Below are positions 21,761 to 56,317 of a stretch of DNA of 64,000 nucleotides, piece after piece. Numbering within the stretch: the first letter of the stretch is position 1; every line of letters begins with the position of its first letter. Both the position numbers and the translations under genes were made by a program. The notes under the pieces are model-generated. The model saw only the letters and a list, made by a program, of their open reading frames with translations. It had not been told where the DNA came from and did no database searches. The stretch comes from Peristeroidobacter agariperforans (GTDB taxonomy: Bacteria; Pseudomonadota; Gammaproteobacteria; Steroidobacterales; Steroidobacteraceae): positions 310,001 through 374,000 of the forward strand of contig NZ_RYFW01000003.1 of assembly GCF_004138335.1 (NCBI RefSeq), written 5' to 3'.

Positions 21761-21866
21761 GGCAGCCAGCATAGCCGACGAGCGGACGCCGAGTGGATAC
21801 GCAGACCCTTTCTGCCGACGGCCGGCCCGGACTATCTCCTACGCGCCGGCTGGCCGTGAAGTTATT

Positions 21867-27979: not shown

Positions 27980-27991
27980 TTGTCCGGACAA
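27980..27991. promoter_or_regulatory. Operator candidate TTGTCCGGACAA between divergent operons
   Basis: This perfect 12-bp palindrome lies 9 bp from the start codon of the leftward hydrolase gene and 62 bp from the rightward cysteine-hydrolase gene. The same 12 bases occur at 40776 and 40983. Palindromes beginning TTGT and ending ACAA resemble operators of HutC-type GntR regulators, and the only such regulator here is at 46574-47332. Confidence 0.75.
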
Positions 27992-28053
27992 CTTTACTTA
28001 CACAAGCCTTTTTTGCGACTTGCGCGTTAAGCGCTGATTTCGCGGGAGTGAGC

Positions 28054-28734
28054 ATGCAGCCGATCGGAACCAAGATGGTGTGCGATGGACGCACCGCGCG
28101 ACAGATCTTCGAACAGACCATGGCCAACCCGGCCCGCAACAAGTTCGGCTTCGGGGCAAAGCTGGCCATCGTCAACGTCGATATGCAGCAGGCGTACACG
28201 CGCATCGACATGTTCAAAACCGCGTATGAGACCGATCCGCGGCAAATCGAGTACATCAACACGATTTCGCAACTGGCGCGCAGCCGCGGCATGCCGGTGA
28301 TCTGGAGCCGCGTCGGTTACAAAGACGACGCTGGCGATGCCGGGGTGTGGGGTATCCGCACCAACACGCCGGACTCACTGCAGAACATCAAGTACGGCAG
28401 CGAGCGACACGCGTACGACCCACGCTGCGCCATCGATCCCAACGACTTGCAGTACACCAAGCGCATGCCGTCGGCATTCTTCGAGACGCCGCTGAACAGT
28501 TATCTGCGCTGGCACAAAGTGGATACGGTCGTCGTGACTGGCGGCAGCACGTCGGGCTGCGTGCGAGCTACGGCGGTCGATGCTTTGGCCTATGGATTTC
28601 GCACCATCGTGCCGATCGAAACGTGCGCCGACAAACACGAGAGCTATCACTTCGCGAATCTGACGGACCTGCAGCTGAAGTACGCCGATGTCGAGCCGGT
28701 GCAGGTCGTGATCGAGTGGCTGGAGGCGCGTTGA
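28054..28734 (+). CDS. Isochorismatase-family cysteine hydrolase (N-carbamoylsarcosine-amidase-like)
   Basis: The ATG at 28054 is preferred over the GTG at 28048 because GGGAG lies at proper spacing before it. The 226-residue protein has the catalytic triad of the family: Asp in VNVDMQQAY, Lys in TKRMPSAFF, and Cys in TGGSTSGCVRATAVDA. These enzymes hydrolyse C-N bonds in small amides such as nicotinamide, N-carbamoylsarcosine or biuret, or vinyl ethers as in isochorismate. It opens an operon with two deacetylase-fold enzymes, a combination that suggests stepwise hydrolysis of a cyclic or acylated amide. A TTGTCCGGACAA site lies upstream. Confidence 0.92.
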   Translation: MQPIGTKMVCDGRTARQIFEQTMANPARNKFGFGAKLAIVNVDMQQAYTRIDMFKTAYETDPRQIEYINTISQLARSRGMPVIWSRVGYKDDAGDAGVWGIRTNTPDSLQNIKYGSERHAYDPRCAIDPNDLQYTKRMPSAFFETPLNSYLRWHKVDTVVVTGGSTSGCVRATAVDALAYGFRTIVPIETCADKHESYHFANLTDLQLKYADVEPVQVVIEWLEAR

Positions 28735-29639
28735 TGGACACTGTGCAACGAGCCGATCCGCAGCTTTACGATTTCAAGCCGTATCGCGCGCGACCGAAGA
28801 TCGTCTGGCCGGGCGGCAAGCAGATCGCGGTGTGGGTGGCGCCGAACCTCGAGTACTACGAGATCGATCCGCCCGCCAATCCTCACCGCAAGAGCTGGAC
28901 CAAGCCGCACCCCGACGTGGTCGGCTTCTCACATCGAGATCACAGCAATCGCGTCTCGCACTGGCGCATGGCCGAGGTGATGAGCAAGTACGGCTTCCCG
29001 GGCTCGGTATCGCTGTCGGTGGCGCTTTGCCAGCATCATCCGGAAGTCGTTGCCGACGCCAATCGACGCGGTTGGGAGTTCTTCAGCCACGGCATTTACA
29101 ACACGCGCTACACGTACGGCATGGACGAAGCGCAGGAGCGGGCGATCATCGAGGATTCGATTCGCACGGTGCGCGAAGCCACGGGCCAGACGATTCGCGG
29201 CTGGCTCGCGCCTGCGTTGACGCACACCACGCGCACTCTCGATCTGCTCGCCGAGTACGGTCTGCACTACACCTGCGATCTGTACCACGACGATCAGCCG
29301 CAACCGGTGAAGGTGAAGTCGGGTCGCTTGATTTCCATTCCATACAGCCTGGAAGTCAACGATCACTATGGGTTCTTCGTCTACAACATGTCACCGCGCG
29401 ACTACGCGGATGCGTTGATCCGTCAGTACGACCGGTTGGCGACTGAAGGCGAGCAGTCGGGCACGGTGATGTGCATCCCGCTGCACGCTTACTTGATCGG
29501 CCAGCCGCATCGCATCGGGCCGTTCGCCGAGGTGCTCAAGCACATCGCGGCTGATGGTCGCGCCTGGATTGCGCGCGCCGGCGAGATTGCGGATCACTAC
29601 TACGATCATCACTACCAGGGGGCCGCCCATGGCGCTTGA
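28734..29639 (+). CDS. Polysaccharide-deacetylase-fold enzyme (PuuE/cyclic-imidase-like), first of two
   Basis: The ATG at 28734 shares its A with the stop codon of the cysteine hydrolase (TGATG). The 301-residue protein has the NodB-type barrel in the form used by PuuE-like allantoinases and cyclic imide hydrolases: VWPGGKQIAVWVAPNLEYYE near the start, then FFSHGIYNTRY with the metal-site histidine, GWLAPALTHTTRTL, and IPLHAYLIGQPHRI near the end. It lacks a signal peptide, so it is cytoplasmic and not a wall-polysaccharide deacetylase. It probably hydrolyses a small cyclic or acyl amide. The next gene encodes a diverged paralogue, so the two may form a heteromer or act in sequence. Confidence 0.88.
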   Translation: MDTVQRADPQLYDFKPYRARPKIVWPGGKQIAVWVAPNLEYYEIDPPANPHRKSWTKPHPDVVGFSHRDHSNRVSHWRMAEVMSKYGFPGSVSLSVALCQHHPEVVADANRRGWEFFSHGIYNTRYTYGMDEAQERAIIEDSIRTVREATGQTIRGWLAPALTHTTRTLDLLAEYGLHYTCDLYHDDQPQPVKVKSGRLISIPYSLEVNDHYGFFVYNMSPRDYADALIRQYDRLATEGEQSGTVMCIPLHAYLIGQPHRIGPFAEVLKHIAADGRAWIARAGEIADHYYDHHYQGAAHGA

Positions 29640-30540
29640 GCCTTCGTATCTCGAATACGCGAAGCGTCGCGAGGGCTATGACCACGACTTGTATGAGTGG
29701 TCATCGATCTTTTCGCGCAGCCCGGTCGGCTGGCCAGGCGGCAAGTCGGTTGCGGTGTGGGTGTGCGTGAGCCTCGAATGGTTTCCGATGACGCCCTCGG
29801 ACAAGCCCTTTCGTGCGCCGGGCCACATGGTGACGCCGTATCCGGATTATCGGCACTACACCGCGCGAGAGTACGGCACGCGAGTGGGTTTCTATCGACT
29901 GCTCGATGCCTTCAAGAAGGCGGGTGTGAAGGCGTCGGTGGCGACCAATGGCGCGATCGCTGAACGGTACCCGCAGATCATTGCAGACATCGTGGCGGAG
30001 GGGCACGAGATCATTGCCCATTCCACCGATATGAACGGCGCGATTGCGACGGGTCTGCCCGAAGCAGAAGAGCGTGCGTTGATCGAGCGATCGCTCGCAG
30101 CGCTGTCGGTTGCGGGCAAGAAGCCGTCTGGGTGGTTGTCGATTGCGCGCTCGCAGAGCTGGAATACGCCGCGCTTGCTCAAGGAGGCAGGGCTGACCTA
30201 CATGTGCGATTGGGCCAACGATGAGCTGCCGTATGCGTTCTCGAACGGCCTTGTCAATTTGCCGCTCAATCACGAGCTGTCGGATCGACAGGTTATTACG
30301 GTTCAGCAGCAGTCGATCGACAGCTATGCCCAGCAGGTTGGCGATGCGTTCGATTGGCTGGCGGGTGAAGCGAAGCGCTATGGCGGTCGCGTCCTTCCGT
30401 TGCACATTACGCCGTACATCGTTGGCCTGCCGTATCGAATCGACGCGTTCGAGAAGTTGCTCGAGCAGTTGAGCAAGCGCCGGGAAGCGTGGTTCGCAAC
30501 GGGAGAAGAGATTGTGGCGAGCTGGCGGACGCAGCAGTGA
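29629..30540 (+). CDS. Polysaccharide-deacetylase-fold enzyme (PuuE/cyclic-imidase-like), second of two
   Basis: The ATG at 29629 overlaps the previous gene by 11 bp. The 303-residue product shares the layout of its neighbour (GWPGGKSVAVWVCVSLEWF, GHEIIAHSTDMNGAIA, GWLSIARSQSWNTPRLL, LPLHITPYIVG) but with limited identity, so the duplication is old. The motif GHEIIAHS places the metal-binding histidine. It has no signal peptide. Two adjacent members of this fold beside an isochorismatase-type hydrolase point to degradation of a nitrogen-containing ring or an N-acyl compound. A third, more PuuE-like member is at 53762. The substrate is unknown. Confidence 0.88.
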   Translation: MALEPSYLEYAKRREGYDHDLYEWSSIFSRSPVGWPGGKSVAVWVCVSLEWFPMTPSDKPFRAPGHMVTPYPDYRHYTAREYGTRVGFYRLLDAFKKAGVKASVATNGAIAERYPQIIADIVAEGHEIIAHSTDMNGAIATGLPEAEERALIERSLAALSVAGKKPSGWLSIARSQSWNTPRLLKEAGLTYMCDWANDELPYAFSNGLVNLPLNHELSDRQVITVQQQSIDSYAQQVGDAFDWLAGEAKRYGGRVLPLHITPYIVGLPYRIDAFEKLLEQLSKRREAWFATGEEIVASWRTQQ

Positions 30541-31970
30541 GTCTTGCTGTCATTAATCCGCGCACGGGCGTGGCTGATCACTCCATTGACCCGGTTGGCG
30601 CGGACGCTGTTTCGGCGCTTGCTGCCGACCTGCGAGCGCACCAGCGCGCTTGGCTGGACAAGGGCGCAGAGGGCCGAGCGGGCGCGCTGCGGCGACTGGC
30701 TGAAAGTGTCGCGCGTCATCGCGAGGCTCTGGTCGCAGCGCTGATTGCCGACACGGGGCGCGCTGGACTATCGGCAGTCGAGGTCGATAGCGTCATCCGG
30801 ATGTTGAATCGCTGGGTGCAGAGTGCGCCGGCTTTGATCGCTCGCTATCAAGCTTCCAGTCAGGGCACAGCGATTCCGTCGATCACGACGTCGACTCGGC
30901 TCGTGCCTTATAGCCTGGTAGGCGTCATCAGCCCGTGGAACTTCCCGCTGCTGCTGTCGATGATCGACACGATTCCGGCGTTGGCGGCGGGCTGTGCGGT
31001 CATCGTGAAGCCGTCCGAGATCACGCCACGCTTCATTCGTCCGTTGATGAAGGCGATTGTCGAAGTCCCAGAGCTCGCGTCCGTGTTGACCGTAATCGAG
31101 GGCGATGGCGCCACCGGCGCTGCGCTGATTCCTAACGTCGATTTCATCGCGTTCACCGGCTCCGTCGCCACCGGTCGCAAAGTAGGCGAGAGCGCCGCAC
31201 GCGCATTTATTCCAGCGAGTCTGGAGCTAGGCGGCAAAGACCCACTCATCGTGCTCGCAAGCGCCGATCCTGAGAACGCGGCGGGCATCGCGTTGCGCGC
31301 GTCGGTAGTGAACACCGGGCAGGCGTGCCAGTCCATCGAACGCGTTTACGTCGCGCGCCCCATCGCTGAGCGCTTCCTGGCTGCGCTGGTTGAGAAGGCG
31401 CAGGCCGTGAGGCTCAATTATCCCGATATCAAAGTCGGTGACATCGGGCCTTTCATCAGCGCGAGGCAGGCGGACATCGTGCGGGCACAGATCGACGATG
31501 CTGTGTCACGTGGCGCGAAGTTGTTGGCCGGCGGACGCGTCGAAACGCTCGGCGGCGGGAAGTATTTGCGGCCGACGGTTCTCACGGATGTCACGCCTGA
31601 CATGCTCGTGATGGCCGAGGAAACGTTCGGCCCCGTCATCCCCGTGACGGTATTTGATACGAACGACGAGGCCGTAGCACATGCGAACGCCGGCACCTTC
31701 GGCCTTTCAGCCGCCGTGCTCGCTGGTACAACTGAGGAAGCCGAGGAAATCGCTGGACGCATCAACGCGGGCGCCGTGTCGATCAACGACGGAGCGTTGA
31801 CGACGATGGTCTGGGAGGCCGAAAAGTCCAGCTTCGGTGCGAGCGGCCTCGGGCCGTCACGCATGGGAGAGAGCGGCCTGCTGAGGTTCTTCCGCAAGCA
31901 GGCGCTGATTCGTCAGAGCGGCGCGCCGGCGCCGCTCGCGGCGTATTCAGAGGAAGCGCTTCAGCGCTGA
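30537..31970 (+). CDS. NAD(P)-dependent aldehyde dehydrogenase
   Basis: Translation likely begins at GTG 30537, overlapping the upstream stop as GTGA; the track of codons further upstream belongs to the deacetylase gene. The 477-residue protein has SPWNFPLLLS, KPSEITPRFI, the glutamate loop LELGGKDPL, the catalytic cysteine in NTGQACQSIER and the EETFGPVIP segment. It is distant from the aldehyde dehydrogenase at 1513 and ends with a coniferyl/benzaldehyde-dehydrogenase-like ASGLGPSRMGESGL region. It is last in its operon and would oxidise an aldehyde formed by the upstream hydrolases. Its 3' end overlaps the convergent gene at 31961 by 10 bp. Confidence 0.93.
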   Translation: MSLAVINPRTGVADHSIDPVGADAVSALAADLRAHQRAWLDKGAEGRAGALRRLAESVARHREALVAALIADTGRAGLSAVEVDSVIRMLNRWVQSAPALIARYQASSQGTAIPSITTSTRLVPYSLVGVISPWNFPLLLSMIDTIPALAAGCAVIVKPSEITPRFIRPLMKAIVEVPELASVLTVIEGDGATGAALIPNVDFIAFTGSVATGRKVGESAARAFIPASLELGGKDPLIVLASADPENAAGIALRASVVNTGQACQSIERVYVARPIAERFLAALVEKAQAVRLNYPDIKVGDIGPFISARQADIVRAQIDDAVSRGAKLLAGGRVETLGGGKYLRPTVLTDVTPDMLVMAEETFGPVIPVTVFDTNDEAVAHANAGTFGLSAAVLAGTTEEAEEIAGRINAGAVSINDGALTTMVWEAEKSSFGASGLGPSRMGESGLLRFFRKQALIRQSGAPAPLAAYSEEALQR

Positions 31971-32695
31971 AGCTCCACCAGCTCGTACCACGTCTGCATA
32001 TAACCGCCGACGCCGCCTTGCACGAAGATGGCGTCGTCATCGGCGGTCACCCAAACATCGTAGTGCGGATGTTGTTTACCGCCCATGCCCGGGCCTTCAT
32101 CGTCGACGAAGCGGAAGTGCCGGCACTTGAACGTACCGGCCGCAACGGTGATCGTTTCCTCCCCCACGTACTCCAGCCCGATGGCTACTTCCGCGATCTG
32201 CGGCGGCGTGGCGCCTCGATGATCGGGTGAGGGCACGAACACGCGAATGGCGCGTCGATGCGGGCCCTTGCTCAGGTCCATGCAGCGCGTCGTGTAAGCG
32301 TCGCCAGCCACCGGGTGAGTGCCGAAGCCGTCGATTGCGCCCGTGTATTCGACTCGCTGCGACAGCCTGCCAATCGATGGTCCGAAGCTCTCGCATTCGA
32401 CCACACCGCTGTCGTTGCCCGGCTCATGACGCAGCCAGCCCGAGCCCATGAAGCGATCACCGACGGTGAGGTGCACGTGCAGGCTCTGGGGGCGGCCGGC
32501 GCTGTCGAGCGAGTACACGATGTCTCGCAGCACGGTCGGGGCAGGTTCCTCGATCTCACAGCGAGCGCGGAAGATCGCGCTGCCGTCGCCGTGGTGTGTG
32601 AAGGTGAACCACTCGCGGCCGCGCTCTTTGTCGAGCAAGTCGGGCTTCTTGGAGGTATAGCGGATGAGCCCGCTCACAGCACGATGTTTCATCAA
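31961..32695 (-). CDS. Protein of unknown function, beta-rich (DUF3108-like pattern)
   Basis: The 244-residue protein has alternating charged and hydrophobic strand-like segments and no signal peptide or transmembrane segment. Recognisable features are VYSLDSAGRPQSLHVHL, DAYTTRCMDLSKG and a C-terminal half with ETITVAAGTFKCRHFRF and YDVWVTADDDAIFV. The last segments recall DUF3108-type proteins, where a tetrapyrrole- or lipid-like ligand has been suggested but no activity is established. Its ATG overlaps the stop of the 118-residue gene, and it ends the eight-gene leftward operon that starts with the TonB receptor at 40740. I can say only that it is probably a soluble binding or auxiliary protein of this pathway. 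Confidence 0.8.
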   Translation of the reverse strand: MMKHRAVSGLIRYTSKKPDLLDKERGREWFTFTHHGDGSAIFRARCEIEEPAPTVLRDIVYSLDSAGRPQSLHVHLTVGDRFMGSGWLRHEPGNDSGVVECESFGPSIGRLSQRVEYTGAIDGFGTHPVAGDAYTTRCMDLSKGPHRRAIRVFVPSPDHRGATPPQIAEVAIGLEYVGEETITVAAGTFKCRHFRFVDDEGPGMGGKQHPHYDVWVTADDDAIFVQGGVGGYMQTWYELVELQR

Positions 32696-33048
32696 TTATC
32701 TCGCAGGTCTACGCTGATATCGGCGACCGGCTTCTCGTCCGTCTGCATCGCCTCCATTTCCTGCTGGACGCCGCGCATGACGCGGGCGATGTATTCCTTG
32801 GTCATCAAGCCGCGCTGGTAAGCGGCGTCGCGATCGGGCTGATACTTCTCGATGTCAGCACGGCTGATCGTGCCTTTGCTGTCGAGTAGTCGCTCCACCG
32901 TATCGAGCCGCTCCTTCAGCACCGACACCTCACCGACAACCGCGAGCAGGATGGACAACATGCGCTCGCTGCTCGGGTCGCCGAGAAAGTCAGGGCGCTT
33001 GCCCTTGGCTCGCGCGCCCGCGCGCAGGATGTAATCGATGTCGCTCAT
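32692..33048 (-). CDS. Small protein of unknown function with a predicted coiled coil
   Basis: This 118-residue protein overlaps its neighbours by 4 bp on both sides (ATGA), which supports it as a real gene. It contains a heptad-like helix from about residue 28 to 55 (LSILLAVVGEVSVLKERLDTVERLL), then RADIEKY and a polar C-terminus. No catalytic motif is visible. Position between the methyltransferase and the DUF3108-like protein in the receptor operon suggests a structural or assembly role, perhaps as a small subunit of one of them. I do not recognise the family. Confidence 0.75.
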   Translation of the reverse strand: MSDIDYILRAGARAKGKRPDFLGDPSSERMLSILLAVVGEVSVLKERLDTVERLLDSKGTISRADIEKYQPDRDAAYQRGLMTKEYIARVMRGVQQEMEAMQTDEKPVADISVDLRDN

Positions 33049-34247
33049 GATTGCGGCTTCCAGGCTCCGTATGCGTTCCAGACGGCAGCGCGACCGTGAT
33101 CTTCCTTCTCGCCCGATGCGGCGACCGGGAAGACGGTAGGGTCGACGACTGCGCGCACGCCCGTCACAAACTGACTGGAGCGGGGCAGGCCGGCGGCCTC
33201 GATGACTTTCTTCAGGTCCATGGCGTGCATGGCCGACCAGAACGGCTCGTTGTTGTTGAAGGCGTCCCAGTCGCGAATGAACTGCTCGTACAACGGCATC
33301 TCATCGGAGTATTGCGGCTGTTCGAGGTGCAACATCAGTCCGCCCGGTGCGAGCACACGCACGCCTTCGCGAATGATTTGCGGCAGCGCCTTGCCGGACA
33401 GTTCGTGCAGGAACATCGTCGTCTGCACCCAGTCGAAATGTCCGTCGGGGAAGCGGCTCAGGTCCTCGGCGTTCATCTGTATGAACTTCAGGTTCTTCGC
33501 ACCGAGCGCTTGAGCGCGTGCGTGTCCGTAGCGCAGGACGGGCGCGGCAGTATCGATGGCGATGATTTCGGTTTCCGGGAACGCGAGCGCGAGCGGCACG
33601 ATGTTGTGGCCGATGGTGCAGCCGACGTCGAGAATGCGCTTCGGCGTCCAGCCGGGGCGCTCGCGTTTGATCCATTCGACGAGCGCCTGCCCGCCGCCAT
33701 CGGACAGCGCGCCGAGCCCACCCGCGGTCGTCGCGAAGATGCCGCAATCGTAGTTCGCGCCGGCGGACACATCGCCAGGCCGCTCTTCGCCATGATACGA
33801 GCCGGGCATGCAGTGAATATCCACCGCATTTTGATAGCGAGGCGTGGCAACCGAGGGATTGAGCTCCAGTGTCGGTCGATCCGCATTGAACTCACGAGCT
33901 TTGGCATCCAGCGCTTCCAGCTGACGCAGCACCATCGAGCGGCCGTTCTGCTGGCGCATCTCCATGGAGTTGCGCTTGCAGGCCGACCAGAAGCGATGCC
34001 ATGGATCTTTGTTCATCGCGTGCCGGATCTCGAAGCGGTCTTTCGGATCGCGCTGATGCTCGGCTCGGAACGCGGGCAGCACGCGCTTCTCGTAAGCGAG
34101 CTTATTGCCAGGGCCGACGACGCCGGACAAATACTTGTTGAAGGCGGTGAGGAAGTTGAAGCGCGCCGCTTCGTCGTGAGTCGGCGTCGGAAACACTTCG
34201 TGCCGGGTCACCGCGGTGTACGGCGGCGGCACATCTTCACGTTTCAT
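33045..34247 (-). CDS. SAM-dependent methyltransferase with long N-terminal extension
   Basis: The 400-residue protein has a Rossmann methyltransferase core at about residues 205-330: motif I reads ILDVGCTIGHN (a threonine replaces the usual second glycine), followed by EIIAIDTAAPVLRY, NLKFIQMNAEDL, FDWVQTTMFLHEL and VLAPGGLMLHLEQP. The first 200 residues are not part of a typical class I methyltransferase and resemble no domain that I recognise. It could O- or N-methylate an intermediate, or act in C-C chemistry as some methyltransferase-fold proteins do. It sits between the nitrilase-like gene and the small coiled-coil gene, with 4-bp overlaps on both sides. Confidence 0.87.
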   Translation of the reverse strand: MKREDVPPPYTAVTRHEVFPTPTHDEAARFNFLTAFNKYLSGVVGPGNKLAYEKRVLPAFRAEHQRDPKDRFEIRHAMNKDPWHRFWSACKRNSMEMRQQNGRSMVLRQLEALDAKAREFNADRPTLELNPSVATPRYQNAVDIHCMPGSYHGEERPGDVSAGANYDCGIFATTAGGLGALSDGGGQALVEWIKRERPGWTPKRILDVGCTIGHNIVPLALAFPETEIIAIDTAAPVLRYGHARAQALGAKNLKFIQMNAEDLSRFPDGHFDWVQTTMFLHELSGKALPQIIREGVRVLAPGGLMLHLEQPQYSDEMPLYEQFIRDWDAFNNNEPFWSAMHAMDLKKVIEAAGLPRSSQFVTGVRAVVDPTVFPVAASGEKEDHGRAAVWNAYGAWKPQS

Positions 34248-35395
34248 ATGAGCCCATCCTTCGCGAGGCGCTCGATCACTTGTTCATGAGCGCGCAGGAA
34301 ATGATTGCGGTCCGGGACCTTCACCTGGCCGTTCTCGATCAGGCCGTTGGCCGGCTGTCCGACAGTGGCCCCATACACGGCTGCGAACGGCTCGAGCCGC
34401 TGACGCGCCAGGAAGTTGGTCATGCCCGGCTTGCGTCGCTGATGGCGCAAGGCGTCCAGGTTGAGATCGGCGAACGCGGTAAAGGTTTCGCCAGTATTCG
34501 CTTCGGCCAGCACCGCGCCCTTGTAGTCGATGACTACCGAATTGCCGTCGGCCGAATCGAGCGGCAGCGTCGTGTCCTCGATGCCTGCGGTGTTTGCTGA
34601 CACGACGTACGCGATGTTCTCCATCGCCCGCGCGCGCTTGGCCAGCGCCTTCGGCGTCATGAGCGGCGAGCCGATTTCGGAGGAACTGTGCACGAAGATC
34701 TCGGCGCCACGCAGCGCGTGGGCACGGGCGATCTCCGGATACAGAATCTCTTCGGAGGCGATGGCGGCGAGGTTGCCGATCTCGGTGCGAGCGACGGGGA
34801 AGACGCCGTCGATGCCGTAGATGTCCAGGTACTTCGACCAGACGTCATGAGGCGTCGGCGCGAACATCGAGTTCAGTCGGCGGTAACGCAGGACGACATC
34901 GCCGCTGGGGCCGATGACAAAGCTCGTCTGGAAGTAGAGGCCGGGGAAGTGAGCGTCGCGTTCGTACGCGTTGCCAGCCAGAAACAACTGCTGTGACTGT
35001 GCGACCTTGCCGAGTGCCTGATACTCGGGACCGTCGATGTCGAGCGCGGCCTTGGCTGCGAAGTCTGGAATGGAGATGCGGCCCGGATAACTCGTCAGCA
35101 CATACTCTGGCAGAACCGCGAGCTTTACTGGTGTGCCGCCGTACTGCTGAATGAAGACGCTGGAGCTCCGCAGCTTCACGCCGATCGCTTCGATCATCGC
35201 GAGCATCTGCTGACGCGCAGCCGCGCGATCCGCCAGGCGCTCCACCGAGCGAGCGGCGATTTGCAAAGCCACGGCTGCGTATTGAGAGACCGCAGTCATA
35301 CGGTTACTCCGCGAAGTATCGGCGGCGCCGACGGCAGACGAGGGCAGACCTGCTGCCACCATGCCCGCGAGCATTTGCCGGCGATCGATGCCCAT
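34244..35395 (-). CDS. Nitrilase-superfamily (carbon-nitrogen hydrolase) protein with serine at the catalytic cysteine position
   Basis: The 383-residue protein begins with a Tat-like signal (GIDRRQMLAGMVAAGLP), so it may be exported folded. The nitrilase fold follows, with the glutamate in LPEYVLTSYP and a basic segment in RYRRLNS where the lysine is expected. The nucleophile motif, normally I-C-x-D/E-x-x-x-P-E, reads AIASEEILYPEIAR, putting serine at the cysteine position. A Cys-to-Ser change normally abolishes amidase activity, but the rest of the motif is well kept, so this may be a distinct subfamily with another chemistry. It lies 3 bp after the FAD-oxidase gene in the receptor operon. 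Confidence 0.87.
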   Translation of the reverse strand: MGIDRRQMLAGMVAAGLPSSAVGAADTSRSNRMTAVSQYAAVALQIAARSVERLADRAAARQQMLAMIEAIGVKLRSSSVFIQQYGGTPVKLAVLPEYVLTSYPGRISIPDFAAKAALDIDGPEYQALGKVAQSQQLFLAGNAYERDAHFPGLYFQTSFVIGPSGDVVLRYRRLNSMFAPTPHDVWSKYLDIYGIDGVFPVARTEIGNLAAIASEEILYPEIARAHALRGAEIFVHSSSEIGSPLMTPKALAKRARAMENIAYVVSANTAGIEDTTLPLDSADGNSVVIDYKGAVLAEANTGETFTAFADLNLDALRHQRRKPGMTNFLARQRLEPFAAVYGATVGQPANGLIENGQVKVPDRNHFLRAHEQVIERLAKDGLI

Positions 35396-35398
35396 CCA

Positions 35399-36958
35399 TC
35401 ATAGTCCCAGGCTGCCGGGATTCATCAGGTTGTTCGGATCGACCGCGCGCTTCACCGCTTGCAACAGCTCCCACGCGCGCGGGTCGCTGGCCTGCTTCAG
35501 CGGATAAGCGCGACCGACCTGAAGATGCGTCGCACCCAAGTCGCGGAAGATGCCGATGAGCGACGTGCGCAACTGCTTGACCAACGCGCGAGCCGACTCA
35601 TTCGCCGGAAATCCCTTGAGCTTCGCAAGGTGTGCGGCTTCGACAGAACGGCGGTGGATGTCCTGCAGCTCGTCCGGCCAATAGAACACCGGCTCGATCA
35701 AACAAGTGGAGCGATTCACTGCGCACAGCAACGCGCCGGTGGTCACTCCGTTGTTCGCCATGGCAGTCGCATGCTCGGCGAACATTGCTTGAATGCGATT
35801 CCAGCCCTCGACCAGTCGGCTGTGCGGCAGGAAGCCGTGCACCGGCACCCAGCGCTCGCCTTCCGGTCCGACCATCGAATTCACCGGCGGGAACGGATTG
35901 GCGCGCAGAATCTTCGGGATCGTGTTCTCGACACTGTGACCGCCGAATCGAACGGCAATGGCTTCCACCGCCTTCATGTCGGCATCGACCGCACTTTGAT
36001 GACGACCTTCAGCGATCACGTGCAGCGAGAAGTGCGCGTCATCGAGGAACGAGCGGCCCGCGGCGACAACCTTCGCGCCTTCCTTGAGCGCCTTCCAGGC
36101 CGAGCCTTGCGCCTTCATCATGTTGACCAGCGACTGCGCATCCCTGGTCAGGCTCTCACGTTTCATGCGCTGAGCCTGCAGGTTCGGGTCGAAGCCGAAA
36201 CATTCGGAGGCCAGGCCCTCGCGTGAGACCGCGCTCATGGCCTTGAAGTAGCCTTCGGCCTCGGGGAAGCTGAAAGAGCCGTACGCAAAGGCGGTGCCTT
36301 CGCGAACCGTCTGCAGCGTGATCGTCGCTTTCACACCGAGTGCGCCACAATCGGCGGCGAACAGGCCCGTGATATCCGGTCCGAACGTGCGGAAGAAGTC
36401 GCTGCCGGTCTTCACAAGAGTTCCGTCAGCGAGCACGACTTCGAAACTGATCGCCGCATTGACAACCGTGCCGCCGGACGCGCCCCAGAAGATGCCGTTC
36501 TGGCTCATGCCGCCACCGACGGTGGCGTTGATGCCGGACAAGGTGCCCCAGGCCAGCGCTCGCAATCCTTTCGGCTTCAACGTGCGCTGCAGCTGGTCCC
36601 ACGTGCAGCCGGCCTCGACAGTTACGGTCATGTCCGTCTCGTTGATATCGAGCACGCGGTTCATCGCGCCCGTGTCGACGAGCAGCGCCTGCTTGCTAGG
36701 TGCGAGATAGCCACCCGTGTAGCTCATGCCGCCGCCGCGAGGAATGATTGCGAGGCCGGCTTTAGTGGCGGCCGCGATTCCGCGAGCGAGCGTGTCTTTG
36801 TCGTTCGGACGGAGCACGGCGAGCGCAGTCTCGCCGCCGCTATAAACATCGTGCGAGTAGTAGCGCAGCTCGGCTGGATCGGTCACCAGGGCTTGTGGGC
36901 CAACGGCGGCGGCAAGCGCCGCCAGGGGATCGTTTGCAATTTGCATCGAAGCGTTCAT
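35399..36958 (-). CDS. FAD-linked oxidase/dehydrogenase (VAO/GlcD family)
   Basis: The 519-residue protein has the PCMH-type FAD-binding domain in its first half: AIIPRGGGMSYTGGY with the pyrophosphate loop, TVTVEAGCTWDQLQ, and SGINATVGGGMSQNG. The C-terminal half is a substrate-binding cap ending in DPNNLMNPGSLGL, the usual end of glycolate oxidase GlcD and vanillyl-alcohol oxidase relatives. Substrates of the family are alcohols, 2-hydroxy acids and phenols. No His for covalent flavin is obvious at the usual position. There is no signal peptide. It lies 15 bp after the MFS gene, so it probably makes the first oxidation after uptake. Confidence 0.9.
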   Translation of the reverse strand: MNASMQIANDPLAALAAAVGPQALVTDPAELRYYSHDVYSGGETALAVLRPNDKDTLARGIAAATKAGLAIIPRGGGMSYTGGYLAPSKQALLVDTGAMNRVLDINETDMTVTVEAGCTWDQLQRTLKPKGLRALAWGTLSGINATVGGGMSQNGIFWGASGGTVVNAAISFEVVLADGTLVKTGSDFFRTFGPDITGLFAADCGALGVKATITLQTVREGTAFAYGSFSFPEAEGYFKAMSAVSREGLASECFGFDPNLQAQRMKRESLTRDAQSLVNMMKAQGSAWKALKEGAKVVAAGRSFLDDAHFSLHVIAEGRHQSAVDADMKAVEAIAVRFGGHSVENTIPKILRANPFPPVNSMVGPEGERWVPVHGFLPHSRLVEGWNRIQAMFAEHATAMANNGVTTGALLCAVNRSTCLIEPVFYWPDELQDIHRRSVEAAHLAKLKGFPANESARALVKQLRTSLIGIFRDLGATHLQVGRAYPLKQASDPRAWELLQAVKRAVDPNNLMNPGSLGL

Positions 36959-36973
36959 ATCAAAGCGCTGGGA

Positions 36974-38272
36974 TCAGGAAGCTCGGACCAGCTCGGGCTC
37001 GGCGTCGGCGCTGGGCTCGGCGAAGTTGTCGTTGTAGCGGCCCAGGGCCAGCAGCATGGCGCCACCGACGGCGAACAAGACCATCGCGACGAGCAACATC
37101 GGATCGTAACCACCGGTGCGATCGCGCACGATGCCGTAGATGATGGGAGAGATCGCCGAGCCGATGCCGAACGGCATATACAGCACGCCGTAGATGCGGC
37201 CGTAATGGGCCATGCCGAAATATTTCGCAGCGAGAAACGCGATCACGTCGGACTCGGCGCCGGCAGCGAAGCCGAGCAGGAACGCGCCCGTCATCACTAA
37301 CGGCAGACTCGTGTCCGTTCCCATCAGCAGATAACAAGCCAGTGCCGGCAACAGCAGAGCAGGGAAGGCGACACCCGGCGCCCAGAAACGATCGAACAGG
37401 AAACCCACGAGGAGTCGTCCAGTGAGGATGCCGATCGCGACGACACCGAGCACACTCGCGGCGACTTGAGCCGAAAAGCCGTGCAGCCCGACGATCTGCG
37501 CGATGTGAATGTGAGCGCCGCCGTAAGCGAACGCGATCATCAAGATCGAGCCGAGCAACACCCAGAAGCGATAGCCACGCGCGGCTTGTGCGAGCGTGAT
37601 GCCGGTGACTTTGCCATCCGCGCCGCCGACACCGGCGGGCCGCTCGTCGGCGCGCGGCTCTCGAAACCACAGATAGCCGATCGGCAACGCGACCAGTATC
37701 GGCAACAGTGCGACGACCGGAAACGCCATGCGCCAGCCACCGGCTGCGATGGCGCGTTGTGCGATCTGAGGGACGACCATCGCGGCGAGGCTCGTGCCCA
37801 GCAACATGATGCCGAGCGCCAGGCCGCGGTTGCGGTTGAACCACAAGCTGACGGCGCGGCTCCAGGTCACCGGGGTCGAGCCGATGCCGATCGCGCCGAG
37901 CGCCGCCCAGAACAAGATGTAACCTCCGATCGAGCCGGGCAGGAAATAGAACGCGCCGAACATCAGCCCGAACAGAAACAACGACAACAAGGCGACGGGC
38001 CGGACGCCGAAGCGGTCGGCCAGCCCGCCGAACACCGGCGCCATGAACGAAGCGATCAGACCGAACACGGTCACGCCCGCGCTCACCGAAGCGAAATCCC
38101 ACCCGAATTCCTTGTGGATCGGGCCCATCACCAGCGGCAGCACGTTGAACGGCAACGGCGAGGCGCCGCACGCCACGCCGAGCAACGCCGCGACCAGCGG
38201 TTTGGAGCCCCGCTTGAATTCCGAAGCTGGCCGCGCCGACACGGTGTCGGCGCGGCTTTCGCCTGCTGTCAT
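36974..38272 (-). CDS. MFS transporter, monocarboxylate/oxalate-formate type
   Basis: The ATG at 38272 shares a base with the stop codon of the TonB receptor gene (TGATG), giving 432 residues with 12 predicted helices. The segments MAPVFGGLADRFGVRP after helix 2 and SLWFNRNRGLALGI between helices 4 and 5 are typical of the monocarboxylate porter/OFA group. Translational coupling to the receptor strongly suggests that the two carry the same substrate across the outer and inner membranes. It is unlike the ACS-type carrier at 8509. Confidence 0.93.
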   Translation of the reverse strand: MTAGESRADTVSARPASEFKRGSKPLVAALLGVACGASPLPFNVLPLVMGPIHKEFGWDFASVSAGVTVFGLIASFMAPVFGGLADRFGVRPVALLSLFLFGLMFGAFYFLPGSIGGYILFWAALGAIGIGSTPVTWSRAVSLWFNRNRGLALGIMLLGTSLAAMVVPQIAQRAIAAGGWRMAFPVVALLPILVALPIGYLWFREPRADERPAGVGGADGKVTGITLAQAARGYRFWVLLGSILMIAFAYGGAHIHIAQIVGLHGFSAQVAASVLGVVAIGILTGRLLVGFLFDRFWAPGVAFPALLLPALACYLLMGTDTSLPLVMTGAFLLGFAAGAESDVIAFLAAKYFGMAHYGRIYGVLYMPFGIGSAISPIIYGIVRDRTGGYDPMLLVAMVLFAVGGAMLLALGRYNDNFAEPSADAEPELVRAS

Positions 38273-40740
38273 CAGAAGTTGAACCTCGTGCGAAGCATCC
38301 ACTGCATCGGAGCGTTGATGTAGGAGGTGTTGGCCAGCGATGTGTTGACTGCCGTCTCATTGAAGCAGTTCGTGCACTCGGCCGCCACCAGCCAGCGATC
38401 GTCCGCGCCGAACAACGTCAGCGTGGCATTCACGAACCACGCCTCCGGGCTGTGCGAGCCGGTGATGAAGTCGCCGCCGTACGGGTTGGAGGGGAAGGTC
38501 CCATTGGTGCCCGTGACCGAGCCGCTGTAGATGGTCAGGTTGTTGGTCGCCACTTCCTGCTCGGTGCGATAGCTGGCGTTGATCGAAGGCACCAACGTCA
38601 TGCGGCTCGCGCCCAGCGCAATGTCGTAGCTTGCACCGAACGACAGCGTCACGTCCGGAGTGCGCACCGGTTCGGCGATCTGGCCATCGGCAGTGATGAC
38701 GCCGGCGGCGCAGGCGGCGACAGCGGGGCTGGCGTTCGGAATCGCACCGGTCGCCAGCTGTTGCTGACACAAGCGCTGCTGCGCGCCCACCGACTGGATG
38801 CCGTACTCGTCGAAGTCCGGCGCGTTGCGGTCGATCTTGTACTTGTCGTCCTGGAAGCCGGCGTTGAAGTACGTGGTCAAGCCGTCGATCGGCATGTACG
38901 TGAGCTCGAGCTCGATGCCCTTGTTCTCGTAGTCCGCGAAGTTGCGGGTCAGGAACGTCATCGAGCCGTTGGCGTTGAGCAGCGCCGAGGGCGTCTGCAG
39001 GTCGGACACGTCCAGGTAGAAGAACGTCAGGTTGGCGCGCAGGCGATTGTTCAACCAGTCGGTCTTGGCGCCGGTCTCGTAGCTCCACACCTTTTCCGGG
39101 CCGAACGGCAGGACGCTGCGAGCCGGCGTGCTGCGGGCGTTCCAACCGCCGGACTTCATGCCGCGGGTCGCCGATGCGAACAGCAGCACGTCGCCCGAAG
39201 GTTGATAGTTGACCGCAAAACGCGGCGTCCACATGTCGGTGCCCATCTCTCGCGGAATCGGCTTGCCGGACGGGGAGATCAGGTTGACGTTGTCCATGCA
39301 CGTCGCCTCGATCGTGCCGTCGTTACAGCTCGGACGATTGTCGCGGATCGACATCTTCTTGGTTTCGTCGGTGTAGCGGATGCCGGCCGTGAGCTTCCAC
39401 TCGTCGGTGACGTTGAAGTCGGCTTGCGCATAACCGGCGAGCGCTTCGGTCGTGTTGTCCAGCACGCGGTCTGCGAGCAGCAACGTGTCGCCGAAGATGT
39501 CGGCGAAATCCGTCGTGTTCTTCTCGTCGAGGTAGTACACGCCTGCGACCAGGTCGGCGAAGCCATCGCCCAGGCTGCCGTTCAACTTGATTTCCTGGCT
39601 GAACTGCTCGTGCGAGCCGTCATTGAGGATGGTGAAGCCGCCACGGGTGAAGCCGCGAACCGGTGGGTTCGGGGATGCCAGCGACGGACCGCCGCGGCCA
39701 TCGTAGAAGTCCAGCCCGTATTGCTGGGTCGTGTCGACGTAGCCGGTAATGAAGCTCAACTGGAAGTCCGGGCTCAGATCGATCTGGAAGTTCGACGTGA
39801 TCAGGTCGGTCTCTGAGCGGGCGCCGAGCAGATAGTTTGCCTTGCGTCCCGAGATCACCAGCGGAGCATAAGGCGACGCGCCGATTGCGCCTTCACGCAG
39901 GCCGGTGCTCGCGAAACGGCCGTTGCAGTCGGCGGGATTCGCCGGGTTGCACTCGAAATTGAGGATGTTCTCGCCATCGGCCTGGATCTTTGCAAACGAA
40001 GCCGACCAGGAGAGTGCGTCGGTGAAATCAGCTTTCAGGCCGACGCGGGCGCCCCAGCCGTCGTCGTCATTCAGACGATCGCCGGTGGTGACATTCTTCA
40101 CGTAGCCGTCGTCTTCCTGCCAGTAACCGCTGAGCTTCACGGCCAGCTTGTCGAACACCGGCACATCGATGGAGCCGCGTGCGACTTGCTTGTTGTAGCG
40201 GCCATAGCCGATCTCGGCGTAGCCGCCCAGCTCGTCGCCCGGATCCGCCATGATCATGCGCACGGCGCCGCCCGTCGTATTACGGCCGAACAGGGTGCCC
40301 TGCGGACCGCGCAGCACTTCGACCCGCTCGACGTCGAACAAGCTCAGGTTGTTGGCGTTCTGGCGGCTCAGATAGATGTCGTCGACGTAAGTGCCGACCG
40401 GCGGGTCGAACGTGGCCACCGTCTCGCTGTTGCCCAGGCCGCGCAGATAGAACGCGTTCGCCGAGCCGAGGCCGGTGTTGTTCTGCGCCACCATGTTGGG
40501 GATGTACTGACCGATCTGCAGCGTGTTCGACACGCCCTGGCTGGTCAGCTGCTCGGCGGAGAACGCCGAGATCGCGATCGGCACGTCCTGCGCGCTTTCG
40601 GTGCGGCGTTGAGCCGTAACGATGACCTCGGTGATGCCGGACGAGGCGGCCTCGTCGGATCCCGCATCGGTCTGTGCGTACAGCGGCATGGTCACGAGGC
40701 TGGTCGTCAGAGCTGTGGCCAGGCCAAACAGATTGCGCAT
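38272..40740 (-). CDS. TonB-dependent receptor
   Basis: The ATG at 40740 follows GGGAGGGGAAT; the 18 codons upstream in frame run into the operator and are not used. The 822-residue product has a signal peptide ending near PLYAQ, a TonB box ITEVIVTAQ, a plug with YVDDIYLSRQ and RVEVLRGPQGTLFGRNTTGGAV, and a barrel ending WMLRTRFNF. This plug type (VPIAISAFSAEQL) is common in sphingomonads and related catabolic bacteria for aromatic or terpenoid compounds, unlike the receptors at 14678 and 59156. It leads an eight-gene operon and has a TTGTCCGGACAA site at 40776-40787. Confidence 0.95.
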   Translation of the reverse strand: MRNLFGLATALTTSLVTMPLYAQTDAGSDEAASSGITEVIVTAQRRTESAQDVPIAISAFSAEQLTSQGVSNTLQIGQYIPNMVAQNNTGLGSANAFYLRGLGNSETVATFDPPVGTYVDDIYLSRQNANNLSLFDVERVEVLRGPQGTLFGRNTTGGAVRMIMADPGDELGGYAEIGYGRYNKQVARGSIDVPVFDKLAVKLSGYWQEDDGYVKNVTTGDRLNDDDGWGARVGLKADFTDALSWSASFAKIQADGENILNFECNPANPADCNGRFASTGLREGAIGASPYAPLVISGRKANYLLGARSETDLITSNFQIDLSPDFQLSFITGYVDTTQQYGLDFYDGRGGPSLASPNPPVRGFTRGGFTILNDGSHEQFSQEIKLNGSLGDGFADLVAGVYYLDEKNTTDFADIFGDTLLLADRVLDNTTEALAGYAQADFNVTDEWKLTAGIRYTDETKKMSIRDNRPSCNDGTIEATCMDNVNLISPSGKPIPREMGTDMWTPRFAVNYQPSGDVLLFASATRGMKSGGWNARSTPARSVLPFGPEKVWSYETGAKTDWLNNRLRANLTFFYLDVSDLQTPSALLNANGSMTFLTRNFADYENKGIELELTYMPIDGLTTYFNAGFQDDKYKIDRNAPDFDEYGIQSVGAQQRLCQQQLATGAIPNASPAVAACAAGVITADGQIAEPVRTPDVTLSFGASYDIALGASRMTLVPSINASYRTEQEVATNNLTIYSGSVTGTNGTFPSNPYGGDFITGSHSPEAWFVNATLTLFGADDRWLVAAECTNCFNETAVNTSLANTSYINAPMQWMLRTRFNF

Positions 40741-40775
40741 ATTCCCCTCCCGTTGTTCTAAAGCGCGGCAAAAAG

Positions 40776-40787
40776 TTGTCCGGACAA
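40776..40787. promoter_or_regulatory. Operator candidate TTGTCCGGACAA (receptor side)
   Basis: This exact copy of the 12-bp palindrome lies 35 bp upstream of the TonB receptor start codon. Confidence 0.75.
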
Positions 40788-40876
40788 ATCGCACTAAACG
40801 GGCACCTTGTCAAGCGTGCCCTGGCCGACACGCCAGTGCAGGGCGCGGGAAACCGCCGCCGCACAATGCTTTAGAG

Positions 40877-40888
40877 TTGTATGGACAA
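40877..40888. promoter_or_regulatory. Imperfect operator TTGTATGGACAA
   Basis: It matches the palindrome at 10 of 12 positions, with both outer TTGT/ACAA arms intact. It lies midway between the two exact copies. Confidence 0.5.
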
Positions 40889-40982
40889 TTGTAACCGCGC
40901 GCATCCTGCGACTTGGGCCGGCGCCGCGCAGTCGTTGCACGCGCGCTGCAATGCTGTGCAAAAAAGCTTGCTTGCAAAAAAG

Positions 40983-40994
40983 TTGTCCGGACAA
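40983..40994. promoter_or_regulatory. Operator candidate TTGTCCGGACAA (CitE-operon side)
   Basis: This exact copy of the palindrome lies 96 bp upstream of the first gene of the rightward operon. Confidence 0.75.
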
Positions 40995-41090: not shown

Positions 41091-41762
41091 ATGCCACTGA
41101 TGTACCCGACACTGGTTTATCTGCACCTGCTGTTGTTCGTGCTCTGGCTCGGTGCAGACGTCGGTGTGTTCGTGCTCGGACAGCACTTTCGTAAGCGAGA
41201 GAGCTACACGCTCGATCAGCGTCTCGCACTGTTGAAGCTGCTGGTGCAGGTGGACATGGTGCCGCGCACCGCGTGGGCGCTCATGGTGCCGCTGTCCTTG
41301 TCAGTGGTGTCGGCCGGCGGTTGGTGGGCCGTGCCTGGCTGGCTGCTCGCAACGGCGTGGCTGGCGGGCCTGGTGTGGTTGTGGCTGGTGTGGGATGCAC
41401 ATCTGCACGATCAAACACCGCGCGCCGTGCGCAATCGCAAGATCGAGTTCTGGCTCAAATGTTTCATCATGGTCGGTTATCTGTGGATCGGCGCGCAGTC
41501 GTTGGCGACCGGCGCACCGCTCATTCCGACCTGGCTTGCCGCAAAAGCATTTCTGTTCGGCGTGATCTTCGCCGCCGCAATCATGATCGATGTTGCTTTC
41601 AAACCGGTCGGGCCGCAGCTGGGTCGCCTCATCAAGGAAGGATCGAGTGACGCCACCGAGAAGCCGCTGCGGGCCACGATGGACCGCACGCGCTGGTGGG
41701 TATGGGCGGTTTACCTGCTGCTGCTTGTGACTTCGTACCTCGGCGCGGTGAAGCCGCTATGA
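41091..41762 (+). CDS. Integral membrane protein of unknown function (CopD/DUF2269-like)
   Basis: The 223-residue protein has about six hydrophobic helices, starting with YPTLVYLHLLLFVLWLGADV and ending with VWAVYLLLLVTSYLGAV. A histidine in helix 1, WDAHLHDQTPRAVRNRK in the loop after helix 4, and aspartates in helices are reminiscent of CopD/DUF2269 membrane proteins, which sometimes bind haem or metal. ATG 41091 is the likely start; a ribosome-binding site GGGAG lies rather far upstream, and ATG 41100 is an alternative. It overlaps the CitE-like gene (ATGA). Its role in a CoA-thioester operon is unclear; an electron-transfer partner for the acyl-CoA dehydrogenase or a transport accessory is possible. 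Confidence 0.83.
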   Translation: MPLMYPTLVYLHLLLFVLWLGADVGVFVLGQHFRKRESYTLDQRLALLKLLVQVDMVPRTAWALMVPLSLSVVSAGGWWAVPGWLLATAWLAGLVWLWLVWDAHLHDQTPRAVRNRKIEFWLKCFIMVGYLWIGAQSLATGAPLIPTWLAAKAFLFGVIFAAAIMIDVAFKPVGPQLGRLIKEGSSDATEKPLRATMDRTRWWVWAVYLLLLVTSYLGAVKPL

Positions 41763-42610
41763 CGAACGTAGCAAACGATGTTGCCAGTGTGCTGTTCGTA
41801 CCGGGCAGCAAGCCGGAGCGCACATCGAAAGCGCTGGCCTCGGCGGCCCGCATTGTTTGTGTCGATCTCGAGGATTCGGTCCCCGCATCCGACAAGGCCA
41901 CGGCGCGGGCCGCCGCGCTCGCTGCGTTGGGTGCGGGCGATCGACGCCTCGCTCTGCGCATCAACGGCATCAAGACGCGCGCGGGGCTGGAAGATCTGCT
42001 GGCGCTCGTGAACGCGAACATCGCGCCGCCGCTGTTGTTGGTTCCGATGGTCGAGAGCGCAGCTGAGATCGCCGTTGTCACAGCAGCGTTCGGCGGCAAG
42101 GCTCCGGCGATCGTGCCGTTGATCGAAACGGTGCAAGGCTTGCGGGCGGCTCATGAAATCGCGGCTGCGCCGGGCGTCGCCGCAATGATGTTCGGTGGCG
42201 GTGATTTCGCTGCCGAGCTCGGCGTCGCGCTGGCGTGGGAGCCGCTGCTCGCCGCGCGCGGCGCTTTCATTCTCGCGTGCGCAGGTGCGGGCATCGGAGC
42301 CATCGATGTTCCGTTCATCGGGCTGGACGATCAACAAGGTTTGATCGCCGAGACCCGCGCCGCGAAGCAATTGGGCTTCACCGGCAAGGCGGCGATTCAT
42401 CCGGCGCAGGTCGATGCAATCAACGCAGTGATGTTGCCGACGGCGGAAGAGATCGCCGAGGCGCAGGAAGCAGCACAAGCATTCGCAGCGGCCAACGGCG
42501 CCGCTGTGCGTTTCAAGGGCCGCATGCTCGAGGCACCGATCATGCGCCGCTATCGAAGAATTCTGGATCAGGGCAGTTTGATGAACATGCGGAGCGAGCA
42601 CGATGCGTGA
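41759..42610 (+). CDS. CitE/HpcH-type acyl-CoA lyase (malyl-, methylmalyl- or citramalyl-CoA lyase-like)
   Basis: The 283-residue protein starts at the ATG overlapping the membrane-protein stop. CitE family residues are all visible: FVPGSKPER, the metal-binding VDLEDSV, the CoA-contacting ALRINGI, the second ligand glutamate in PLIETVQGL and the aspartate in GGGDFAAELG. Family members cleave 3-hydroxy-dicarboxylyl-CoAs into acetyl- or propionyl-CoA and glyoxylate or pyruvate. The following MaoC hydratase, acyl-CoA dehydrogenase and CoA-transferases form a complete logic of activation, desaturation, hydration and cleavage, as in methylsuccinate or itaconate degradation. The exact substrate is an inference. 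Confidence 0.9.
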   Translation: MTNVANDVASVLFVPGSKPERTSKALASAARIVCVDLEDSVPASDKATARAAALAALGAGDRRLALRINGIKTRAGLEDLLALVNANIAPPLLLVPMVESAAEIAVVTAAFGGKAPAIVPLIETVQGLRAAHEIAAAPGVAAMMFGGGDFAAELGVALAWEPLLAARGAFILACAGAGIGAIDVPFIGLDDQQGLIAETRAAKQLGFTGKAAIHPAQVDAINAVMLPTAEEIAEAQEAAQAFAAANGAAVRFKGRMLEAPIMRRYRRILDQGSLMNMRSEHDA

Positions 42611-47332: not shown

Positions 47333-47339
47333 GCCAACG

Positions 47340-47344
47340 CCTCC
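47340..47344 (-). promoter_or_regulatory. Ribosome-binding site GGAGG that decides the TTG start of the GntR gene
   Basis: GGAGG on the minus strand is seven bases from TTG 47332. With this start only 44 bp separate the divergent start codons of the regulator and the MmgE/PrpD gene. Confidence 0.65.
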
Positions 47345-47376
47345 ATTTGGCAATTGTCGGTGGAGAGCCACCTGCA

Positions 47377-49919: not shown

Positions 49920-49922
49920 TGC

Positions 49923-52606: not shown

Positions 52607-52623
52607 AAAGCGAGGGACTCCCC

Positions 52624-56291: not shown

Positions 56292-56317
56292 TACGAGACT
56301 TACAACGAAGGTCAGCC

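Follow-up and report, generated by a model that had tools for sequence, protein, structure and literature searches.

HutC-type regulators have the canonical operator consensus GT-N-TA-N-AC. NagR/YvoA and DasR are described regulators that combine a GntR domain with a UTRA domain and control amino-sugar genes. In NagR, G(-5) is recognized by Arg38 and G(-4) by Arg48, while Gly69 in the wing contacts the minor groove (PMC4333415). Here we analyze a stretch of 64,000 nucleotides from Peristeroidobacter agariperforans (contig NZ_RYFW01000003.1, positions 310,001 to 374,000; hereafter the window) that encodes a protein of the same GntR plus UTRA architecture and carries repeated copies of a 12-bp palindrome, TTGTCCGGACAA (extended consensus AATTTGTCCGGACAAATT). 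The palindrome is very probably the operator of this GntR/HutC-type protein, which is predicted to control four operons of the window. This assessment concerns the operator, the regulator and the four operons, and not a single substrate common to all of them. In contrast to the targets of NagR/YvoA and DasR, the genes presumed to be controlled here do not look amino-sugar related.

On the metabolic side, the gene content recalls two described pathways. One is itaconate degradation (Ict/RipA, Ich/RipB, Ccl/RipC), as RipB and RipC are the closest NCBIfam entries to the MaoC-type and CitE-type enzymes of the window. Both, however, score below the equivalog cut-offs (RipB-like, 245 bits against 340; RipC-like, 231 bits against 375), and the window differs further in having family III CoA-transferases, an acyl-CoA dehydrogenase and a larger regulon. 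The other is the maleamate branch of nicotinate degradation with dimethylmaleate hydratase, where an alpha/beta hydrolase, an isochorismatase-family hydrolase and a LeuCD-type hydratase act in succession. In contrast to that pathway, no pyridine oxygenase is found among the annotated genes of the window, while a PuuE pair and an HMG-CoA-lyase-like enzyme are additional. A search of open-access literature turned up no account of this cluster or of an operator role for the motif, and the 12-mer matched only a Drosophila paper.

The sequence-only reading of the window had reported three exact copies of the palindrome and one 10/12 match, placed at two divergent promoter regions, and all four sites are present in this arrangement (Table 1). 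One region separates the leftward hydrolase operon from the rightward isochorismatase-PuuE operon. The other separates the TonB-receptor operon from the CitE operon, with the imperfect site, TTGTATGGACAA, halfway between its two exact copies. Allowing up to two mismatches, 7 matches occur in the window; shuffled sequence has a mean of 1.44, and none of 100 shuffles reached 7. A scan of the whole genome (7,651,871 bases in 17 contigs, 97.9% complete), which had been suggested as a check on whether the palindrome is frequent and not tied to promoters, found it to be rare: 6 exact copies were observed against about 0.3 expected, and a reversed-pattern control gave 0. Three of these copies lie in the window and three on another contig, C10. 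Six further copies carry one mismatch, compared with 2 for the reversed control at up to one mismatch. The genome count rises to 165 at two mismatches, close to the 130 of the control, so imperfect sites, including the one at 40877, mean little alone.

In the window and on C10, the operators lie 5-96 bp ahead of start codons, the placement expected for repression. Within the promoter region 40776-40994, the imperfect site is spaced 101 and 106 bp from the exact sites, about ten helical turns each, so that cooperative binding or DNA looping is possible; all three sites are retained in Steroidobacter agaridevorans. Sigma-70 promoter scans of both promoter regions gave no match. In the aligned hydrolase promoters of relatives, a conserved CTTGT begins about 15 bp before the site and may be a -35 element or a half-site.

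The copies on C10 (at 987581, 994705 and 996947, all within 9.4 kb) belong to a satellite cluster that is unlinked to the window genes and has their operator; the sequence-only reading had not covered it. These copies stand 26 bp before a P244-like gene, 14 bp before a TonB-receptor gene and 5 bp before a LysR gene (P159, P244 and P118 denote proteins listed in Table 1). The satellite contains paralogues of P159 (82%), the aldehyde dehydrogenase (72.5%), P244 (43%), the FAD oxidase (36%), the nitrilase-fold protein (28%) and the TonB receptor (27%). Since the host genome has a single homologue of this GntR at E 1e-10, the satellite would be regulated in trans.

To place the site in a wider context, contigs of one genome per species were scanned by P159 alignment, which yielded 47 loci. 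These come from S. agaridevorans, the nearest named relative in the searched set (P159 97%), in many cases from genera of the Sphingomonadales, and in a few from sources with no label finer than Proteobacteria or Alphaproteobacteria. An exact TTGTCCGGACAA is present at least once in each of the 47. An exact site lies in the divergent stretch between the hydrolase and cysteine-hydrolase genes, 5-12 bp before the hydrolase start, in 40/40 evaluable loci; the other 7, in which a gene was missing or the pair was not adjacent by our criterion, nonetheless have 1-4 copies each. Across 41 promoter sequences, 12/12 columns are invariant, and the 30-bp flanks show average majority frequencies of 0.74 and 0.50. 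Part of this conservation is by descent, since the loci share isochorismatases of 72-99% identity, though the flanks have diverged. Copies were further collected from nine regions, namely the window, the satellite and seven extended regions of relatives (42 in total). The extended consensus derives from 39 of them, with S. agaridevorans omitted as a near duplicate, and its outer bases reach 0.67-0.87. A span of 60 kb holds all three modules (hydrolase, TonB-receptor/methyltransferase and acyl-CoA dehydrogenase/CoA-transferase) in 7/7 of the extended relatives' regions. Twelve of the 47 loci have a second palindrome, TTGTCGAGACAA, directly next to an exact site (L024, L032, L034, L036, L043, L045-L049, L052 and L062), which is possibly a second operator.

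The distribution of the site follows that of the regulator. A close GntR orthologue (45-100% identical) is encoded in 16/16 genomes queried, with two copies in G101, and each of the 15 relatives with a close GntR contains the palindrome, at 3-9 copies except for 36 in Glacieibacterium. The family to which Sphingobium chungbukense belongs was sampled with 199 genomes (5 of them previously included), which were divided by the presence of a GntR orthologue at E 1e-40. At least two copies were found in 21/22 genomes with the orthologue and in 0/177 without it (Fisher 1.8e-27, kinship ignored), and at least one copy in 22/22 and 14/177. For the 8 of these 22 genomes with all copies listed and on the contig of gntR, 46/46 copies lie within 40.3 kb of that gene; G111, G241, G132 and 11 genomes not fully listed stand outside this count.

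In a second sample, of 98 relatives of the window genome (GntR threshold E 1e-30), 8 further genomes encode distant homologues (29-36%), and in 6 of these an exact copy lies no more than about 6 kb away. The exact site lies about 87 bp (G032) and 72 bp (G036) before the distant gntR homologue. Genes for acyl-CoA dehydrogenase (68-73%, 5/6 stretches), MaoC, CitE or CoA-transferase are found nearby. A P159 homologue occurs in 13 of the 98 relatives, with the site in 8 and without it in 5 (G043, G059, G061, G088, G097). These five also lack the GntR at the same threshold, which indicates that the site follows GntR and not P159. Furthermore, the gap between gntR and mmgE contains a site with 0-1 mismatch in 4/8 regions (G100, G101, G107, G108).

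The window protein has an N-terminal winged helix-turn-helix domain (PF00392, 1.1e-18) and a C-terminal UTRA domain (PF07702, 1.1e-17), both above gathering thresholds. Its best solved-structure match is NagR/YvoA, and DasR is among the matches. Ser39, Arg49 and Gly70 occupy the positions of Arg38, Arg48 and Gly69 of NagR, and the half-site of TTGTCCGGACAA has T(-5) and G(-4). Relative to the contacts of NagR given above, the Arg for G(-4) and the wing Gly are therefore common to both proteins, while T replaces G at -5 of the operator and Ser replaces Arg38. The first contact position is S, T, A or N in close orthologues and L, M or I in distant ones; the second is Arg in close orthologues. 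The site reads GT-C-CG-G-AC, so that the GT half-site of the HutC consensus is kept and its central TA is not.

We interpret the four operons as one GntR/HutC repressor regulon because the site is near-unique in the genome, conserved at promoters, co-occurs and clusters with gntR, precedes gntR in several relatives and fits the contacts of NagR. These data support two proposals of the sequence-only reading, namely that one palindrome joins the four operons and that the HutC-type GntR is the likely regulator. About two dozen genes, common to Steroidobacter and dozens of sphingomonads, would in this way come under a single regulator acting at a single operator.

Several observations weigh against this interpretation. 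Within the sphingomonad family, 14 of the 177 genomes without a GntR orthologue have exactly one copy of the palindrome, and 14/88 genomes without a GntR homologue in the 98-relative sample have 1-2 copies. The sampled genomes are not phylogenetically independent. G241 has a GntR orthologue and a single copy that lies 1.2 Mb from gntR, and in the fragmented assembly of G132 the sites fall on other small contigs than gntR. Glacieibacterium frigidum (G111; 3.4-Mb genome, loci L168-L181) has 36 exact copies against 0 for the reversed control. Only 3/36 lie within 40.3 kb of gntR, and 12/14 inspected copies are outside the cluster, many of them in unrelated surroundings that look coding; the palindrome seems to be highly iterated in this genome without a relation to the regulon. 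G067 and G080, with GntR homologues of 34-36%, contain no exact copy, and no exact copy is present on the contig of the second GntR homologue of G060. A 31-kb related stretch of plasmid pJE1 encodes a GntR (27%) and has no such palindrome. No site at up to 4 mismatches precedes gntR in the window, S. agaridevorans or two sphingomonads. Finally, the Arg-to-Ser/Leu feature also occurs in GntR homologues without the site, and is thus compatible with the proposed recognition but not diagnostic of it.

The Glacieibacterium copies, several of them apparently intragenic, would suit a structural or chance repeat with no operator role. In the relatives' regions 8/42 copies fall inside called open reading frames, but the calls came from a simple composition-based picker that missed or over-extended some genes, and at least two are caller errors, as those S. 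agaridevorans copies match intergenic sites of the window. We give this explanation almost no credence, as the copies are promoter-proximal in window and satellite, positionally conserved in every evaluable locus and rare elsewhere in the genome. The palindrome might instead be the operator of another regulator travelling with the cluster, such as the satellite LysR or an unlinked factor, with GntR controlling something else. A LysR gene does start close to one satellite site, and a relative of this LysR was seen in 2/47 loci (L020, L050). This is nevertheless very unlikely: GntR tracks the motif across the 199 genomes and lies near it in distant genomes where the remaining cluster differs, the GTC..GAC core and the G(-4) contact suit HutC-type proteins, and no relative of the satellite LysR was seen in 45/47 loci (stretches of up to about 20 kb).

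Other alternatives leave the operator in place and concern what the genes do. GntR could control all operons through the site while these serve several pathways without one common substrate. Several gammaproteobacterial genomes carry a distant GntR and the site next to genes for acyl-CoA dehydrogenase, MaoC, CitE or CoA-transferase, and the hydrolase operons are absent from the stretches covered. The joint presence of the three modules in every extended relatives' region argues the other way, and we regard separate pathways as unlikely. It is less probable still that the regulon degrades a methyl-branched dicarboxylate of the itaconate, mesaconate or citramalate type directly, with the hydrolases and the TonB receptor for side reactions. 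The RipB-/RipC-like enzymes and the HMG-CoA-lyase-like enzyme, the latter above its subfamily cut-off, speak for it; the hydrolase operon is, however, equally strongly conserved, and small acids of this type are not known to require a TonB receptor.

In the regulon that we favor, the GntR, presumably as a dimer, would bind its operator near the translation starts and repress the four operons and the unlinked satellite until an intermediate of the pathway, acting on the UTRA domain, displaced it. The substrate would be taken up by the TonB receptor and the MFS transporter and then undergo flavin oxidation. Ring or amide opening by the PuuE-like pair, the cysteine hydrolase and the alpha/beta hydrolase would be followed by aldehyde oxidation. 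LeuCD and MaoC could then hydrate an alkyl-substituted dicarboxylate. After CoA activation, C-C cleavage by the HMG-CoA-lyase-like and RipC-like enzymes would lead to central CoA esters and keto acids. Regulator, operator and inducer would offer an experimental handle on this pathway and on the P159, P244, P118 and Cys-less nitrilase-fold families.

That the substrate is not deducible, as the sequence-only reading had concluded, still stands, but the end of the pathway can be narrowed from profile scores. Its most secure parts are LeuCD, the HMG-CoA-lyase-like enzyme and the RipB/RipC-like pair. In its last stage a branched dicarboxylate is most likely cleaved in a CoA-dependent manner, which relates the pathway to itaconate breakdown. 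The front end looks hydrolytic, with enzymes resembling cyclic-amide hydrolases. This would agree with the conversion of cyclic imides or lactams into methyl-branched dicarboxylates, and linear tetrapyrroles are one class of compounds of this kind. The most specific substrate candidate, alkyl-maleimides from linear tetrapyrroles, is a guess. A new aerobic route for the complete degradation of linear tetrapyrroles (bilins and breakdown products of chlorophyll) or of such derived maleimides is a speculative and unlikely proposal. A PuuE-like imidase and the cysteine hydrolase as half-amidase would yield dialkylmaleates, LeuCD and PrpD-like enzymes would hydrate them, CoA-dependent lyases would cleave the products, and P159 would serve as a calycin-like carrier.

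Table 1. Sites and genes of the proposed regulon and its surroundings in the window.
Feature	Position	Strand	Remarks
Operator TTGTCCGGACAA	27980..27991		Between the divergent hydrolase (leftward) and isochorismatase-PuuE (rightward) operons; 9 bp from leftward ATG 27970
Operator TTGTCCGGACAA	40776..40787		TonB-receptor operon; 35 bp upstream of ATG 40740
Imperfect site TTGTATGGACAA	40877..40888		Same sequence in S. agaridevorans; weak alone
Operator TTGTCCGGACAA	40983..40994		41091/CitE operon; 96 bp upstream of ATG 41091
Sulfatase	20369..21772		Directly downstream of leftward operon
CoA-transferase family III	21867..22988	-	PF02515; start approximate
HMG-CoA-lyase-like lyase	22997..23926	-	265.9 bits, subfamily cut-off 246
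LeuD-type small subunit	23926..24567	-	Above subfamily cut-off
LeuC-type large subunit	24534..25916	-	Above subfamily cut-off
P159, uncharacterised protein	25931..26410	-	74-97% identical in 47 loci
Alpha/beta hydrolase, 516 aa	26420..27970	-	
Isochorismatase-family cysteine hydrolase	28054..28734	+	
PuuE-like polysaccharide-deacetylase-family protein a	28734..29639	+	
PuuE-like protein b	29629..30540	+	
Aldehyde dehydrogenase	30489..31970	+	72.5% to satellite copy
P244	31961..32692	-	Weak DUF3108 match under the gathering score; satellite copy 43% identical
P118	32692..33048	-	Small protein without assigned family
SAM-dependent methyltransferase	33045..34247	-	
Nitrilase-fold protein	34244..35395	-	Apparent Tat signal; no cysteine
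FAD-linked oxidase (FAD_binding_4)	35399..36958	-	
MFS transporter	36974..38302	-	
TonB-dependent receptor	38272..40740	-	
Apparent membrane protein	41091..41762	+	No Pfam family
CitE/RipC-like lyase	41696..42610	+	
MaoC/RipB-like hydratase	42603..43112	+	
Acyl-CoA dehydrogenase	43125..44294	+	
CoA-transferase III	44291..45481	+	Start approximate
CoA-transferase III	45487..46572	+	
GntR/UTRA (HutC-type) regulator	46574..47317	-	Proposed repressor; convergent with CitE operon
Adjacent operon	47323..57331	+	Mostly conserved with cluster

The gene content given by the sequence-only reading needs some revision. The four operons hold, but LeuD is the product of 23926-24567, and the gene at 25931-26410, rejected as LeuD, encodes the separate protein P159. 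For the TonB operon, the receptor, MFS transporter, oxidase and methyltransferase were correctly recognized, while the nitrilase-fold gene and two small genes had been overlooked. The gntR gene, thought to end the CitE operon, is convergent with it and lies outside it. LeuC might seem truncated when its start is called at the first ATG (25730). We rejected this, as LeuC homology runs in frame about 60 codons further upstream, to 25916, without an ATG, GTG or TTG start there; the probable start is a CTG near 25916, right after P159.

Profile searches gave limited information on the less familiar proteins. For P159, PDB 2o62 (E 0.011 over 38 residues) and DUF3598_N (E 0.064) are weak matches, and a calycin-like fold is only a lead. 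Profile searches with P244 returned nothing below E 1. P118 adjoins the methyltransferase in 26 of the 28 loci, out of 47, where it was seen. The Asp-Lys-Cys residues of the isochorismatase-family hydrolase are apparently kept. The allantoinase PuuE cut-off (TIGR03212, 424.6) is not reached by PuuE-like copy b (98.9 bits) or by a third copy (244.3 bits), and the closest structure to the CitE-type lyase is PDB 3qll.

The third PuuE-like gene lies in the adjacent operon, together with genes for two MmgE/PrpD proteins, a PaaK-like ligase, an amidase, a REDY/HapK-like protein (45.9 bits, cut-off 25), a short-chain dehydrogenase/reductase (SDR), an enoyl-CoA hydratase, a VOC protein and a reductase. 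This last gene, an MDR reductase, has no grouped counterpart in relatives, and no site at up to 4 mismatches occurs near the start of the operon in the window. The sulfatase is also a cluster neighbor in S. agaridevorans; none was seen in the other 46 loci (stretches of up to about 20 kb).

Catalysis in the nitrilase superfamily depends on a Glu-Lys-Cys triad. The window nitrilase-fold protein contains no cysteine in its 383 residues, and is therefore not an ordinary nitrilase or amidase; we dropped its assignment as one more amidase. Ser is found at the catalytic-motif position in this protein, six orthologues and a Nonomuraea relative, in an alignment made without a reference nitrilase. Two satellite-type copies also lack Cys at this position, and several members have an apparent Tat signal. 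The orthologues are possibly an altered or non-catalytic nitrilase clade.

Cluster and operator extend over Alpha- and Gammaproteobacteria, a spread that had not been recognized from the window. In the genus sample, a close GntR is present in 2/14 genomes (that of the window and G001), while sphingomonad proteins are up to 91% identical, which makes horizontal transfer likely; the regulon has probably moved in this way between sphingomonads and Steroidobacter. A 12-bp site unchanged across two bacterial classes would make a clean case for the transfer of a regulon along with its operators. A related cluster on plasmid pJE1 of Sphingomonas sp. JE1 (L162) shares the GntR, TonB receptor, MFS transporter, FAD oxidases, HapK, methyltransferase with P118, SDR and MmgE/PrpD genes. 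It differs in that hydantoinase A/B replaces PuuE and P159 has no match on the plasmid. In the open-access literature searched, no paper named pJE1 together with Sphingomonas. Actinobacterial neighborhoods of P159 gave no clue to the substrate. In Nonomuraea (L164, 10572-13403), genes for an aldehyde dehydrogenase, P159 and a nitrilase-fold protein stand in a row, with NMT1-type-looking ABC transporter genes close by.

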